A DNA stretch of 64,000 nt from Thiovibrio frasassiensis. Its GTDB lineage: Bacteria; Desulfobacterota; Desulfobulbia; Desulfobulbales; Desulfurivibrionaceae. The notes beneath the pieces were generated by a model that saw only the letters and a list, made by a program, of their open reading frames with translations, had not been told where the DNA came from and did not search any database. A program made the position numbers and the translations under genes. Of the stretch, positions 53,954 to 58,846 are shown one piece after another; the stretch's first letter is position 1, and every line of letters begins with the position of its first letter. The stretch spans positions 1,517,530 to 1,581,529 of the forward strand of contig NZ_JAPHEH010000001.1 in NCBI RefSeq assembly GCF_029607905.1, written 5' to 3'.

Positions 53954-54202
53954 ATGCACACCAAAGAAGAACTGTGTGAGAAGATCAAGGCGGTTTTCCC
54001 GGAGATAGGCGCTTGCGGCATTGACCTTATGGTTGATTACGACGAATCGAATAAGGCCTGGGTTGTTGATCTCAAGAAGGACCAGCATGAGCTCAAAACT
54101 TTTTTGGAAGATTCCGAGGCGCAACAATGCATGGACGGCAAGCAATGTGTGTCGCTGGGGCTGCAGATCGGTCAACTCAGGAAGAATATAGAACAATTGT
54201 AG
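53954..54202 (+). CDS. Small protein of unknown function (82 aa, four Cys)
   Basis: I do not recognise this 82-residue product. It has a strong ribosome binding site (AGGAGG just before ATG 53954), mixed helix/strand character, and four cysteines at residues 8, 21, 59 and 65, the last two within QQCMDGKQCVSLG. No signal peptide or membrane segment is present. Its place behind a good promoter and 73 bases before the selenothioredoxin gene suggests a redox or selenium-linked role, which is only inference. Confidence 0.75.
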   Translation: MHTKEELCEKIKAVFPEIGACGIDLMVDYDESNKAWVVDLKKDQHELKTFLEDSEAQQCMDGKQCVSLGLQIGQLRKNIEQL

Positions 54203-54275
54203 CAGGGGCGACGGCCCTTGTCGCAGGCTGGTGTAACAAGGTGTTTATCCACTAATAACGCGAGGAGGGACAACC

Positions 54276-54845
54276 ATGACGGCAAAGGTCCAATGGCGAA
54301 CGGAAATGGACGATGCCCTGTGTCAGGGGCAAAAAGCAGGCAAACCGATTTTGCTCGATTTTTTCAACCCCAACTGAATTGGCTGTCAACAGATGGATAC
54401 AGTTACGTATCCCGAAAGCAAGGTTGTCCGTTTCATCGAAGAAAATTTTATCCCGCTCCGGCTTCTGTCGGATAGCAAGCCCTATTCGGCGAAGTTCAAT
54501 GTCAAGTGGACTCCCACCTTGATAATTCTGAGTCCGGAAGCTCAGGAACACCATCGAACCGTTGGGTTCTTTGGCTCCGAAGAGTTGATTCCTTCGCTCT
54601 TGCTGGGACTTGGCAAATATCATTATGAAAATGATCGATTTGACGAGGCGCTGATCCGTTTGGAGCAGCTGGTTGCCGGATATGGCATAAGCAGCAGTGC
54701 GCCGGAGGCTGTTTTTCTGATCGGTGTCTGCAGCTACAAACGGTCGCATGATCCCAAACCGTTGAAAGATGCCTATGAAAAGCTGAACGCCGCTTTTCCC
54801 GACAGCGAGTGGGCAAAACGCGCCTATCCTTATCGGCTTCTCTGA
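54276..54845 (+). CDS. Putative selenocysteine-containing thioredoxin-like protein (UxxC)
   Basis: Reading from ATG 54276 (GAGGAGGG upstream), the frame meets TGA at 54375-54377 as codon 34 and stays coding to TGA 54845, giving 189 residues. The context is LLDFFNPN-U-IGCQQMD, so the TGA sits at the first Cys of a thioredoxin CxxC motif (UIGC). The thioredoxin fold continues (RFIEENFIPLRL; VKWTPTLIILSP with the cis-Pro) to about residue 110, and a TPR-like helical tail follows. A hairpin fitting a bacterial SECIS lies just after the TGA. The alternative, a broken gene, is less likely given the motif position and intact downstream frame. Confidence 0.82.
54375..54412 (+). promoter_or_regulatory. 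In-frame TGA (Sec codon) with bacterial SECIS hairpin
   Basis: After TGA 54375-54377, GGATAC (54395-54400) pairs perfectly with GTATCC (54407-54412) around the loop AGTTAC. The loop begins 24 bases from the TGA, and its second base is G. A 16-37 base distance and a G among the first two loop bases are the known rules for bacterial SECIS elements read by SelB. Confidence 0.75.
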
Positions 54846-54949
54846 TTCACTGGCGTGACGGAAAGGCCGGGGCCGTGCGGCTCCCGGCTGATCCGTACCG
54901 CACGCTGTAAACGATTTCCTGCCACCGGGGGGATGCCCAGGAAAGACCT

Positions 54950-55840
54950 ATGGAAGAAAAAAGCTGCGATTGCATCATTATCGGGGCTGGGCCTGGCGGT
55001 TTGCAGGCAGCCATCCATCTTTCCCGCTATAACCGGAAGGTCATTCTCCTTGATCAGGGCGGCGGTCGGACCCGCCATGCCCTGCACATTGAAAATTATC
55101 TCGGCCTTGAAATCACCTCAGGCAAAGAACTCGTCGATACCGGCATCAAGCAGATCCAATCGTTCGGCGCTGAATTTCGGCGGGAGCATGTCGCCTCGGT
55201 GATGGCCGAAAATGGCTTTAGCGTGACCACGGAAAAAGGCCGGTATCAGGCACCCTATCTCATCGTTTCTTGCGGAGTTGTGGAGAATCTTCCCAAAATC
55301 AAAGGGATGAATAAATTTTTCAGCCGGGCCATTTTTACCTGTGTTGACTGCGACGGGTATCATACCACCGGCAAGAAACTCGTCATCCTCGGCGATTCTC
55401 TCGATGCCATGCGCCTTGCCTTTGCCATGCGGCAGATGTTTACCCCGGATATCACCCTCATTCTCCCGGCCGGACTCATGCCGGACGACCACGCCGAACT
55501 GCTGGCCGAAGACGGTATTGCCTTTCTTGCTGGTGTGCCCCAGGAGTTTCTTGGTGACACGGCGTTGACCGGAGTGAAGCTGGCGGACGGACAGGAGATT
55601 GTCTGCGAGGTGGTGATGCTCAGTTATGATTACACCTTAAACGACTCGTGTCTTGCCGGGCTTTCTCTTGAAAGGGATGGCAACGGAACCCAGATTTCAA
55701 CCTCCCCAGGCTGCGAAACGTCTGTTCAAAATCTCTTTGCCCTCGGCGCTCTCAAAGCAGGCAAGGCCCAGGCTATTATTGCCGCTGGTCAGGGTGCCAT
55801 GGTGGGTATTGAGATCAACCACCGGCTCCTGGGGCTGTGA
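54950..55840 (+). CDS. Thioredoxin reductase-like flavoprotein lacking NADPH motif
   Basis: The 296-residue product has the FAD loop IIIGAGPGGLQAA at the N-terminus, the redox-active CVDC in FTCVDCDGYHT (about residues 129-139) and a C-terminal FAD segment (QAIIAAGQGAMVGIEINHRL). The second Rossmann region reads VILGDSLDAMRLAFAM instead of the usual GGGDSA, and the arginine-rich HRR motif that binds the NADPH phosphate is missing. It may take electrons from ferredoxin or another donor, as flavin-type ferredoxin-dependent thioredoxin reductases do. It lies 104 bases after the selenothioredoxin. Confidence 0.85.
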   Translation: MEEKSCDCIIIGAGPGGLQAAIHLSRYNRKVILLDQGGGRTRHALHIENYLGLEITSGKELVDTGIKQIQSFGAEFRREHVASVMAENGFSVTTEKGRYQAPYLIVSCGVVENLPKIKGMNKFFSRAIFTCVDCDGYHTTGKKLVILGDSLDAMRLAFAMRQMFTPDITLILPAGLMPDDHAELLAEDGIAFLAGVPQEFLGDTALTGVKLADGQEIVCEVVMLSYDYTLNDSCLAGLSLERDGNGTQISTSPGCETSVQNLFALGALKAGKAQAIIAAGQGAMVGIEINHRLLGL

Positions 55841-55977: not shown

Positions 55978-56274
55978 ATGAAACGTCAGGTTGAAATGGA
56001 AGAAACCATGCTTCGTGCGCATCGGGATTTTTTGAAAAATCTCGGAAAGTCCCTCAATCTCGTGGCTCAAGACATCGACGAGGCCGGAGAGATGGCGCAT
56101 ATCTGCACCAAAGAGTGGTGCCTGGCCACTGAGGGAGTCCTCGACGAGCTGGCCAAAGTTGTCTTCGCGATTAGCGAACCGCGCTGGCTTTCCAAGGAGG
56201 ACTCCAAGAAGATCAGCGAACTGCGTCACCGTATCCATGAGCTGTATGCCAAGTACAAAGGAGTCAAAAAATAG
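55978..56274 (+). CDS. Small helical protein of unknown function (98 aa)
   Basis: I do not recognise this 98-residue product. It is charged and appears almost wholly alpha-helical, with two cysteines in HICTKEWCLAT (residues 42 and 47). It has no signal or membrane segment. AAGGAGGAG precedes ATG 55978, so it is well translated. It lies 17 bases upstream of the oxidoreductase alpha gene and is probably co-transcribed with it; a subunit or assembly role is possible but unproven. Confidence 0.75.
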   Translation: MKRQVEMEETMLRAHRDFLKNLGKSLNLVAQDIDEAGEMAHICTKEWCLATEGVLDELAKVVFAISEPRWLSKEDSKKISELRHRIHELYAKYKGVKK

Positions 56275-56291: not shown

Positions 56292-57998
56292 ATGCCACCA
56301 GATATTCATCTTCTTATTGGCGGCGAAGCCGGTCAGGGCCTGGTGACTATCGGTCAGCTGCTCAGTAAGGCGCTGGTCCGGGCCGGTTATGAGGTTTTCG
56401 TCAGCCAGAGTTATCATTCCAGGATCCGCGGCGGCCACAATACCTTTTCCATCCGGCTGGGTGCGGGGCCTTTTTTTGCGCCCCGCGAGTCCATTGATAT
56501 CCTGGTGGCGCTCAATGCCGAAACCGTGGATATCCATCGCGGCCAGCTGAACGGCCAGGCGCTGCTTATTGCCGATGCAAGCTTCGCTCCTAACCTGCCG
56601 GGCACAATTTCAGTGCCTTTTGTTGAGCTTGGTCCGGAACATCTGTGGAATACAGCAGCTCTCGGTCTGCTTGGCAAGATACTGGAACTTCCTTTTGATG
56701 CGCTTTACCAAGCCGTGGAGGCTGCGCTCGGGAAAAAACATCCGGAAACCCTTGTCGAAAATAAGGGGGTTTTGGAAAAAAGCTGGGAGTGGGCTGCCGC
56801 CCATGTGTCGGGGCATGGATTTATTCTCACGGGCGGGGCTCTTGCTGCGGATCGTCTTTTGCTTAACGGCAACCAGGCCATTGCCTTGGGTGCTCTGGCT
56901 GGCGGGCTCAAGTTCTGCGCTTTTTATCCCATGACCCCGGCCACCTCCATTGTTCTTGAGCTGATTGTCCACGCCGAGACCATGGGCTGCGTGTTCGAGC
57001 AGGCGGAGGACGAGATCGGTGCCATCAATATGGCTATCGGTGCATCTTTTGCCGGAGCGCCTTCCATGGTAGCCACCTCGGGCGGTGGTTTTGCCCTGAT
57101 GGCCGAAGGCGTCAGCCTGGCGGCCATGACCGAAACGCCGGTGCTGATCGCGGTGGCCCAACGGCCAGGTCCAGCCACCGGGATGCCAACCCGCACCGAG
57201 CAAGGAGATCTGGAGTTCGTGCTGCATGCCGGTCATGGTGAATTTCCCCGGGCAATTTTTGCTCCGGGCAGCATTGAGTCTTGCTTCCATCTTACCCAAA
57301 AAGCATTAGCGGTGGCCGAGCGCTCCCAATCGCCGGTCTTTCTCCTGACCGATCAGTTTCTCGCCGACTCTGCCAGGCCTGTCGTACTTTTTGACACGGC
57401 GGCCAGCAGTCCGGTAGTGGCGGGAATCGAGCCAGGTGATATGCCGATTCCCTACCAGCGCTATCGTCTCACGGAAAATGGACTCTCTCCACGCCTTCTC
57501 CCGGGGCTGTCAACGCATCTGGTGGTGGCGGACAGTGATGAGCATGACGAAGACGGCCATATAAGCGAGGACCACGGGGTGCGCATCGCCATGATGGAGA
57601 AACGGCTTCGCAAAATAGAGCTTCTCAAGCAGGAAGTTGTTGCCCCCACGCTTGCAGGGGAAAAAGGAACGGATATTCTTTTTGTTAATTGGGGATCCAG
57701 CCAGGGGCCTGTCCTGGAAGCGGCCGCCAGTCTCCGCGGGCAGGGGAAGAGTGTCGCCAGCCTGCATTTTTCCCAAGTGTGGCCCCTGGTCCCGCCCCAG
57801 TTTCTCGACATCCTGCAGGCAGCCGGGGAAGTGGTCTGTGTAGAAGGCAACGCCACCGGCCAGTTCGCCCGGCTCATCCAACGGGAAGCAGGCTTTGTCA
57901 TGAACAGGCGAATAGCGCGTTATGACGGCCTGCCTTTTACTGCCCGCTATATTCTTGACAGTCTGGAAACCACTGTAAGCCTGGAGGCCGGAATATGA
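56292..57998 (+). CDS. korA: 2-oxoacid:ferredoxin oxidoreductase, fused gamma-alpha subunit
   Basis: Subunit of an enzyme that oxidises a 2-oxoacid (2-oxoglutarate is the best guess) to acyl-CoA while reducing ferredoxin. The 568-residue product fuses an N-terminal gamma domain (IGGEAGQGLVTIGQLLSKAL; about residues 1-180) to the alpha pyrimidine-binding domain (YPMTPATSIVLEL; EDEIGAINMAIGASFAGA; TSGGGFALM). It overlaps the beta gene by four bases. Substrate specificity cannot be read from the sequence alone. Confidence 0.9.
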   Translation: MPPDIHLLIGGEAGQGLVTIGQLLSKALVRAGYEVFVSQSYHSRIRGGHNTFSIRLGAGPFFAPRESIDILVALNAETVDIHRGQLNGQALLIADASFAPNLPGTISVPFVELGPEHLWNTAALGLLGKILELPFDALYQAVEAALGKKHPETLVENKGVLEKSWEWAAAHVSGHGFILTGGALAADRLLLNGNQAIALGALAGGLKFCAFYPMTPATSIVLELIVHAETMGCVFEQAEDEIGAINMAIGASFAGAPSMVATSGGGFALMAEGVSLAAMTETPVLIAVAQRPGPATGMPTRTEQGDLEFVLHAGHGEFPRAIFAPGSIESCFHLTQKALAVAERSQSPVFLLTDQFLADSARPVVLFDTAASSPVVAGIEPGDMPIPYQRYRLTENGLSPRLLPGLSTHLVVADSDEHDEDGHISEDHGVRIAMMEKRLRKIELLKQEVVAPTLAGEKGTDILFVNWGSSQGPVLEAAASLRGQGKSVASLHFSQVWPLVPPQFLDILQAAGEVVCVEGNATGQFARLIQREAGFVMNRRIARYDGLPFTARYILDSLETTVSLEAGI

Positions 57999-58846
57999 TA
58001 TCCGTTGAAGACTACGGCAAATATGAGACAGCCTGGTGCCCGGGCTGCGGCAATTTTGGCATTCTCAATTCCCTGAAAAAAGCCCTCGTTGCCTGCGGGC
58101 TCGCACCCCATCAGGTTTTGCTGGTCTCCGGCATTGGACAGGCGGCAAAGACTCCGCATTATCTCAAGGCAAATGTTTTTAACGGCCTGCATGGGCGCAG
58201 TCTGCCGGTGGCGATCGGGGCAAAGCTTGCTAATCCGGAGCTTACGGTAATTGCCGAAAGCGGCGATGGCTGCATGTACGGGGAGGGGGGCAATCATTTC
58301 CTGGCGGCATTGCGCCGGAATGTCGATCTTACCATCCTGGCGCATGACAACCGGGTGTACGGTCTCACCAAGGGGCAGGCCAGCCCCACTTCGGAGAAGG
58401 GTTTTGTGACCAAGGCCCAGCCCCATGGCGCTTTTGCTGCGACTTTCAATCCGGTGGCGGTGGCGGTTACCATGGGCGCCTCTTTCGTGGCGCGTGGCTA
58501 TGCCGGCTTGCCGGAGCATCTTGCCGGACTCATCGCGCAAGCCATCAATCATCGGGGCACGGCTCTGGTTGATATTCTGCAACCGTGCGTGTCGTTCAAC
58601 AAGGTCAACACCTACACATGGTACAAGGAACATTGTTATACGCTTGCTGAGGATTATGATCCTCGCAACCATGCACAGGCCATCGCCACCGCGTTGGAAT
58701 TCGGCGAGCGCATTCCCCTCGGCGTTATTTACAAAAAAGAAGAGGCCCTTTTTGAGGATCAATTTCCGGTTCTCCAGAACGGGCCGCTTGCCGGGCAGGA
58801 GGTTTCCCGAGAAGGGTTGCGGCAGATTATGCAGGGTTATCTTTAG
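57995..58846 (+). CDS. korB: 2-oxoacid:ferredoxin oxidoreductase, beta subunit
   Basis: Thiamine diphosphate-binding partner of the upstream subunit, 283 residues. It has WCPGCGN near residue 15 for the 4Fe-4S cluster, GDGCMYGEGGNHFLAALRRN with the metal/TPP ligands, and DNRVYGLTKGQASPTS. It has no fused ferredoxin domain. The TPP needed may link it to the thiamine genes at 30-33 kb. Confidence 0.92.
   Translation: MISVEDYGKYETAWCPGCGNFGILNSLKKALVACGLAPHQVLLVSGIGQAAKTPHYLKANVFNGLHGRSLPVAIGAKLANPELTVIAESGDGCMYGEGGNHFLAALRRNVDLTILAHDNRVYGLTKGQASPTSEKGFVTKAQPHGAFAATFNPVAVAVTMGASFVARGYAGLPEHLAGLIAQAINHRGTALVDILQPCVSFNKVNTYTWYKEHCYTLAEDYDPRNHAQAIATALEFGERIPLGVIYKKEEALFEDQFPVLQNGPLAGQEVSREGLRQIMQGYL

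Follow-up and report, generated by a model that had tools for sequence, protein, structure and literature searches.

A probable UxxC thioredoxin-like selenoprotein with a TPR-like tail in Thiovibrio frasassiensis and related bacteria

The gene and its surroundings

The window, i.e. the whole stretch of 64,000 nucleotides analysed, is part of the 2.84 Mb genome (G000:C1:1517530-1581529) of Thiovibrio frasassiensis, a member of the Desulfobulbales and most likely a sulfur-cycle bacterium. It contains a gene, on the forward strand, whose reading frame is open from an ATG at 54276 to its terminal TGA except for one internal TGA codon. This in-frame TGA lies at the position of the first cysteine of a CxxC motif, as a sequence-only reading of the window had recognised; if it is translated as selenocysteine (Sec), the local sequence becomes NUIGC. 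A SECIS-like hairpin follows closely downstream, and a gene for a flavoprotein resembling thioredoxin reductase (TrxR) comes next on the same strand (Table 1). Standard gene calling would shorten the gene to 33 or 150 residues, and the active site would be lost.

Table 1. Features of the locus, in window coordinates
Feature	Position	Strand	Details
Shine-Dalgarno-like motif AGGAGG	54263..54268	+	7 nt 5' of ATG 54276
Probable selenoprotein gene	54276..54845	+	189 residues if TGA34 is Sec; terminal TGA 54843-54845
Thioredoxin-like domain (Thioredoxin_7 / Thioredoxin_2, DsbD-gamma-like)	54291..54590	+	residues 6-105; Pfam, AlphaFold model, fold comparison
UGA codon, predicted to be read as Sec	54375..54377	+	residue 34, motif U-I-G-C
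Cys37, second residue of UxxC	54384..54386	+	conserved at +3 of the Sec position in all 128 TGA-form proteins
SECIS-like hairpin	54395..54412	+	arms 54395-54400 and 54407-54412, loop 54401-54406 (AGUUAC)
Pro80 of T-P motif	54513..54515	+	invariant in the 44 sequences of alignment A1
Helical TPR-like tail	54591..54842	+	residues 106-189; model helices, TPR signals below cut-off
TrxR-like flavoprotein gene	54950..55840	+	TIGR01292 122.6 bits, below cut-off 343.45

Domain composition and predicted structure

When read across the TGA, the protein matches Thioredoxin_7 of Pfam with 38.4 bits (cut-off 27) over residues 6-87 and PF13098 with 37.5 bits (cut-off 27); the domains placed across the TGA are Thioredoxin_7, Thioredoxin_2 and DsbH-like ones. 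The classical thioredoxin family, PF00085, reaches 19.6 bits, below its cut-off of 23.5. The proposal that a thioredoxin fold extends to both sides of the TGA is thus borne out by the Thioredoxin_7 match. For the tail, Pfam gives sub-threshold TPR signals only in the protein itself, and a TPR_16 match of 45.9 bits, above the cut-off of 32.7, in its homologue L102, which has a cysteine in place of the putative Sec.

A structure was predicted with AlphaFold from alignment A1, which includes 44 of the order's 54 full-length loci and was also used for the phylum search; cysteine stood for Sec. The model (pLDDT 96.8, pTM 0.91) shows a thioredoxin fold and, behind it, successive helices, those of the tail spanning residues 101-118, 122-136, 142-157, 161-173, 178-182 and 184-188. 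Within the predicted thioredoxin fold, the first helix and the first strand are both encoded 5' of the TGA. Pro80 is, we presume, the cis-proline expected opposite the active site of a thioredoxin fold, and a TP dipeptide is present within residues 69-100 in all 128 TGA-form proteins. A helical repeat tail had been suspected from the sequence as well; both the model helices and the TPR_16 match in L102 agree with this.

In a Foldseek search, E. coli YbbN (3QOU) came first by E-value, with a poor overlay of the whole molecule (TM 0.41, rmsd 11.7). The best rows of VIA-align, with Z-scores of 13.7-15.9, are thioredoxin-fold domains that include DsbD-gamma and DsbH and cover mainly residues 1-120; DsbD-gamma chains score 13.8-14.3 and the best domain 15.9, and YbbN is absent among the 50 rows listed. 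No signal sequence was seen by eye, so the protein is probably cytosolic. Sequence profiles and the predicted structure together model the product as a thioredoxin domain resembling DsbD-gamma with a short TPR-like tail.

Homologues and the codon at residue 34

Of 193 genomes surveyed in the order, 103 have some match at 1e-3; the 57 strongest or family-like places were examined, the rest being weak matches. A near-full-length gene with TGA at the residue-34 position is present in 53 of the 193 genomes, and the other places among the 57 contain a TGA gene that is cut short (G005), a cysteine form with TGT (G185), a broken gene (G028) and a C-terminal fragment (G152). The broken copy (L067/L173) has its frame disrupted just past the TGA and has lost the tail, in a genome that keeps SelA. 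The phylum sample consisted of 395 genomes, of which 118 have a match at 1e-12; the 86 further loci examined carry TGA in 75 cases (70 genomes), TGC in nine, and GAG and GTG in one each.

Altogether there are 140 near-full-length homologues that read through this position, 128 with TGA, ten with a cysteine codon (L065, L102 and L103 among them), two with another sense codon and none with TAA or TAG. A search for homologues that have cysteine at residue 34, or that end before the TGA, had been suggested from the sequence alone; the former exist, and in place of the latter we find genes that read through. The TGA-form genes (128, including that of the window) encode 155-208 residues, and such a gene occurs in 123 sampled genomes besides T. 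frasassiensis. Between U and C their products have IG, LG, TG, GG, GA, VG, PG or GS, and never P as the last of the two residues. Metagenome-assembled genomes are the source of ten named relatives of the gene; most are labelled Deltaproteobacteria, and the names include Desulfurivibrio, Desulfobulbaceae and Desulfocapsa.

The TGA could be a true stop, in which case the visible protein would begin at ATG 54393, 15 nt past the TGA, and the upstream 33 codons would be a relic or encode a leader peptide. This alternative start had been noted beforehand, the mechanical list of open reading frames does give the corresponding ORF of 150 residues, and an ATG is present at the equivalent codon in 120 of the 128 TGA-form genes. 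However, a Shine-Dalgarno-like motif is found in the 20 nt 5' of the first start in 129 of the 140 family genes and precedes the in-frame ATG behind the TGA in only 5 of 120. Among the 13 closest loci, differences at codon positions 1, 2 and 3 amount to 0.107, 0.061 and 0.249 in the codons 5' of the TGA, and to 0.096, 0.075 and 0.317 in codons 47-189; by this measure the upstream codons are under purifying selection and evolve like those 3' of the TGA, and in the model they build part of the fold. A true stop would also be expected to drift between TGA, TAA and TAG, as is seen at the ends of these 140 genes (57 TGA, 51 TAA and 32 TAG), yet neither TAA nor TAG is found at residue 34, and the cysteine forms read straight through. 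We therefore give termination at this codon only a slight chance.

Another explanation is an error of sequencing or assembly at a cysteine codon, or a pseudogene that arose there recently; in its favour, one relative (G028) does have a gene disrupted just past the TGA. But 128 members of the family, drawn from many separately assembled genomes, have the same TGA, which makes a read error very unlikely and leaves this explanation a negligible probability.

The hairpin downstream of the UGA codon

The sequence-only reading had pointed to a 6-bp hairpin with a loop G at the correct distance from the UGA, and such a hairpin is indeed present. Its sequence, GGAUAC-AGUUAC-GUAUCC, forms six base pairs around a six-nucleotide loop, with G at loop position 2, then U; it starts 17 nt downstream of the UGA, and the distance from UGA to loop is 23 nt. 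Bacterial SECIS elements, as characterised in the part of PMC13188914 available to us, have a loop of 3-9 nt, a stem of 4-16 bp, a G in the first two loop positions, a spacing of 16-37 nt and a minimum free energy of at most -7.5. Hairpin 54395-54412 lies within all these limits as given there, within that for energy only when 46 nt are folded: nucleotides 54375-54420 fold into the named stem plus a few outer pairs at -8.5 kcal/mol, and the 18-nt hairpin by itself has only -6.4 kcal/mol. In a shuffle test on the same 46 nt, 40 of 200 shuffles fold as well; with z only -0.85, the single sequence does not prove the hairpin. Rfam has no match within 54200-54900.

Comparison of the homologues is more informative. 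Of the 128 near-full-length TGA genes, 114 have the exact six-pair pattern at the fixed place, and in each of these the second loop base is G; among 20,779 other windows of the genes, taken in the same codon register, 71 have the pattern (a background of 0.34%). Four of the 14 genes without the exact pattern (L118, L119, L145 and L147) have no hairpin of at least four pairs in the fixed 18 nt and contain a nearer hairpin instead, of -7.2 to -12.2 kcal/mol; the remaining ten have a shifted or bulged version, two with four pairs only. At least five pairs can form in the fixed 18 nt in 122 of the 128 Sec forms, versus two of the ten cysteine forms (L103 and L110), with mean energies of -7.1 and -1.2 kcal/mol, respectively. 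The stem is also kept through changes of the encoded residues, such as D to G, or D to E together with Y to F; in family f41 it is built with N-T-G-P-Y-S in place of D-A-V-T-Y-P.

Covariation, another check proposed at the outset, was assessed in the phylum set, alignment A3 (128 distinct sequences, from 129 rows that include the cut-short gene of G005, with one duplicate dropped), and in the order alone, alignment A2. In A3, 95.3% of the cells of the six-pair hairpin are paired. Double, i.e. compensatory, changes occur at four of the six pairs, which three of 500 shuffles reach, and in 33 cells, compared with 6.2 in the shuffles (sd 2.1; 0 of 500), although these shuffles ignore relatedness in both cases. 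When the partner strand is slid by +3, there are also four pairs and 23 double-change cells, so the count of double changes alone is not decisive; but only 21.9% of cells are then paired, and the covariation score is 0.047 versus 0.217 for the hairpin. Within the order, the hairpin is paired in 97.8% of cells and covariation is weak, with one pair and three cells changed on both sides; a slide of +2 scores 0.130, above the 0.121 of the hairpin. RNAalifold favoured another weak pairing on A2, which was set aside because the hairpin is paired nearly throughout both alignments and slid partners, over A2 and A3, in 17-63% of cells. As far as sequence comparison goes, the comparative evidence supports the hairpin where the single sequence does not, and the family provides strong comparative evidence for a SECIS element within coding sequence.

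Selenocysteine machinery and natural exchange of selenocysteine and cysteine

The genes selA, selB, selC and selD had been named as the ones to look for, and the genome of T. frasassiensis encodes SelA (545 bits), SelB (375 bits) and SelD (378 bits), all above their cut-offs, as well as tRNA-Sec (72.5 bits; gathering threshold 47). The SelD gene (L072, G000:C1:1039542-1040465) itself contains one in-frame TGA, so SelD is probably a selenoprotein too.

SelA was found in 115 of the 123 further genomes with a Sec form (53 of 53 plus 62 of 70). Seven of the eight others are less than 90% complete; the eighth, G150, is 95% complete and has no SelA, though SelB was found. SelB is uninformative within the order, where 165 of 193 genomes score above the cut-off. 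Among ten genomes with a non-TGA form (nine with a cysteine codon and G502 with a valine codon), six keep SelA. The other four (G469, G555, G382 and G464), all with a cysteine codon and at least 98% complete, have neither SelA nor an over-cut-off tRNA-Sec, and they are exactly the genomes without the latter among the 14 searched. The absence of SelA in 4 of 10 versus 8 of 123 genomes corresponds to a Fisher p of 0.006, a value that ignores relatedness, and a single genus, which lies apart from the Sec forms, accounts for three of the four. G541, from the same genus as G469, has a Sec form together with SelA and tRNA-Sec.

A tree was calculated by a quick method with a midpoint root, leaving out L066, L067 and L068 and trimming L041, L090, L112 and L118, as was done for the gene lengths too. 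It places the cysteine forms L065 (G185), L102 (G469) and L103 (G206) among Sec forms. Two long-branch joins were flagged, one of them that of L103 with L115, making the position of L103 less sure than those of L065 and L102. The nine rows of family f72 (L104-L112) stand apart, seven of them with and two without cysteine at residue 34; in this divergent branch the second cysteine of the motif is lost in most rows, and in the same two the first as well, so its function may have changed.

A conserved TGA in an open frame does not by itself name the residue inserted, and the codon could be read as another amino acid, tryptophan or a near-cognate one. Against this, the genome has the complete Sec machinery, a SECIS-like hairpin that covaries follows the codon, the three homologues placed among Sec forms have cysteine, not tryptophan, and the four genomes without SelA and tRNA-Sec carry a cysteine codon. 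TGA is, besides, the terminal stop in 57 of the 140 family genes. Insertion of another residue is consequently very unlikely. The central claim of the sequence-only reading, translation with Sec, gains support from the machinery, the homologues and the covariation of the hairpin, and on this comparative basis UGA34 is very probably translated as selenocysteine.

Neighbouring genes

A conserved operon partner was sought in two ways: seven neighbours from the window were compared with 143 loci by tblastn, and 721 ORFs lying around 127 loci were clustered, the flanks differing in length. A scan for promoters and terminators added nothing usable. Among the 14 closest loci (L012-L025, including that of the window), 12 have the TrxR-like gene 40-109 bp behind the selenoprotein gene, and by tblastn it was found in none of the other 129; a dedicated TrxR-like partner is thus unsupported for the family as a whole, and in this genus the protein is a possible redox partner. 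When aligned to the canonical TrxR of the genome, it keeps the CVDC motif and lacks the GxGxxA- and HRR-type motifs, which we take to be those for NADPH. Its gene is close to genes for a 2-oxoacid:acceptor oxidoreductase (56292-58846), which leads us to guess at ferredoxin-driven recycling; the protein is possibly a ferredoxin-linked reductase.

Response regulators, identified by eye, recur in 17 loci; they were not taken as partners, since they lie within 400 bp in only eight, on mixed strands. Two small genes flank the locus. That at 53954-54202 encodes an 82-residue cysteine-containing protein with no Pfam family above cut-off, which has homologues close to the selenoprotein gene, on either strand, in 23 of the 143 loci (including this one). 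The other, at 55978-56274, encodes a 98-residue protein with no Pfam or NCBIfam family above cut-off and recurs next to the selenoprotein gene in the majority of the closest loci.

Relation to known proteins

The gene had been called one of an unannotated type. This holds in so far as NCBIfam (June 2026) has no model above cut-off for the protein, but not for its class: in the part of the record seen, UxxC thioredoxin-fold selenoproteins of this domain class are documented since 2006 or earlier (PMC1794560). A scan of the 44 members of A1 gave the same or related NCBIfam families, cut-offs being shown for the first member only. The selenoprotein models TsoB, VPGUxxT Trx-like and Trx7/PDZ have a related thioredoxin-like domain in common with the protein, which remains far under their cut-offs (40 of 805, 28 of 275 and 19 of 300 bits, respectively); they differ in their other domain partners and Sec motifs.

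The nearest published description is that of a predicted UxxC selenoprotein called "thiol:disulfide interchange protein", assigned to PF13098 in the sections consulted of PMC9312934 and PMC13188914. It was reported, in the portion of PMC1794560 seen, from Syntrophus aciditrophicus, Geobacter metallireducens and G. uraniireducens (spelt G. uraniumreducens), and an excerpt of PMC2398784 names it Trx-like 2 (cd02953). That this published family (representative WP_011366075.1) and ours are the same has, we estimate, a little less than an even chance. Both have a PF13098-class domain, above cut-off in our protein, with Sec first in UxxC, and both come from Deltaproteobacteria, as far as these partly seen sources go (PMC9312934, PMC13188914, PMC1794560, PMC2398784); the likeness is one of description. 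No TPR tail is mentioned for the published protein in the passages seen, and neither "TPR" nor "tetratricopeptide" occurs in the main text of PMC9312934 or of PMC13188914. The same phylum also has short thioredoxins that, judged by their sequences, are of Sec type but have no TPR tail (L165-L168), with the motifs UPHC, or UAFC/UTYC and signal-like N-termini. The published protein may be our family, or it may be this tail-less type. Desulfotalea psychrophila is presumably a close relative. It is not listed as a carrier in the part of PMC1794560 seen, which also argues against identity of the two families.

A TPR-tailed Sec thioredoxin does not appear in the portions seen of PMC1088965, PMC12013277, PMC5029168 and PMC1242214, terms for one are absent from PMC8318568, and a literature search returned no paper that joins "UIGC" (as a word start) with "selenoprotein".

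In overall architecture, the protein resembles the chaperedoxins CnoX/YbbN (E. coli 3QOU), which also consist of an N-terminal thioredoxin fold and a C-terminal TPR-like domain. In contrast to these, its thioredoxin domain is DsbD-gamma-like rather than classical and scores below the cut-off of PF00085, a criterion of our own, and it has 189 instead of 282 residues. The active-site motif of CnoX/YbbN is SxxC or WC[G/X]PC according to the part of PMC6282202 seen, and the UxxC of our protein (NUIGC) corresponds to neither. The same source, as far as seen, describes CnoX as a thioredoxin-TPR protein that protects its clients, with CcCnoX as a form that is a reductase (PMC6282202). The C-terminal (gamma) domain of DsbD agrees in fold, profile similarity and position of the CxxC motif, but our protein stands alone, with no membrane domain and, by eye, no signal sequence, and has Sec and a TPR-like tail.

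Proposed mechanism and implications

SelB and tRNA-Sec would decode the UGA at 54375-54377 as Sec, guided by the hairpin 17 nt downstream for which there is comparative evidence. In thioredoxin-fold enzymes, the residue at the position of Sec34 attacks and that at the position of Cys37 resolves. The selenolate of Sec34 would thus attack a client disulfide, or an oxidised thiol, and Cys37, as the probable resolving cysteine, would then resolve the mixed selenylsulfide. A flavoprotein reductase would recycle the selenoprotein, in this genus maybe the TrxR-like protein encoded next to it (54950-55840). As TPR domains generally do, the tail probably contacts a client or partner, in an arrangement as in the CnoX/YbbN chaperedoxins. 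We give roughly an even chance to the protein being a reducing thiol-disulfide oxidoreductase with a partner-binding tail; the client, the direction of electron flow and the role of the tail are surmised.

The gene is real and widespread, but its product is a member or variant of a kind of selenoprotein that is already well known. A more far-reaching reading, which we put forward tentatively and regard as rather unlikely, is that the family is a distinct, undescribed subfamily of cytosolic UxxC thioredoxin-TPR proteins ("seleno-chaperedoxins"), widespread in this phylum and perhaps ancestrally with Sec there, that would tie the redox chemistry of selenium to the quality control of proteins in anaerobes and has undergone repeated changes from Sec to Cys, once with the Sec machinery absent. 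G541, with Sec, and G469, with Cys, form a natural same-genus pair on which the benefit of selenium could be tested. The fusion to a TPR-like tail also suggests a connection, accessible to experiment, of selenium-based redox reactions with protein quality control.
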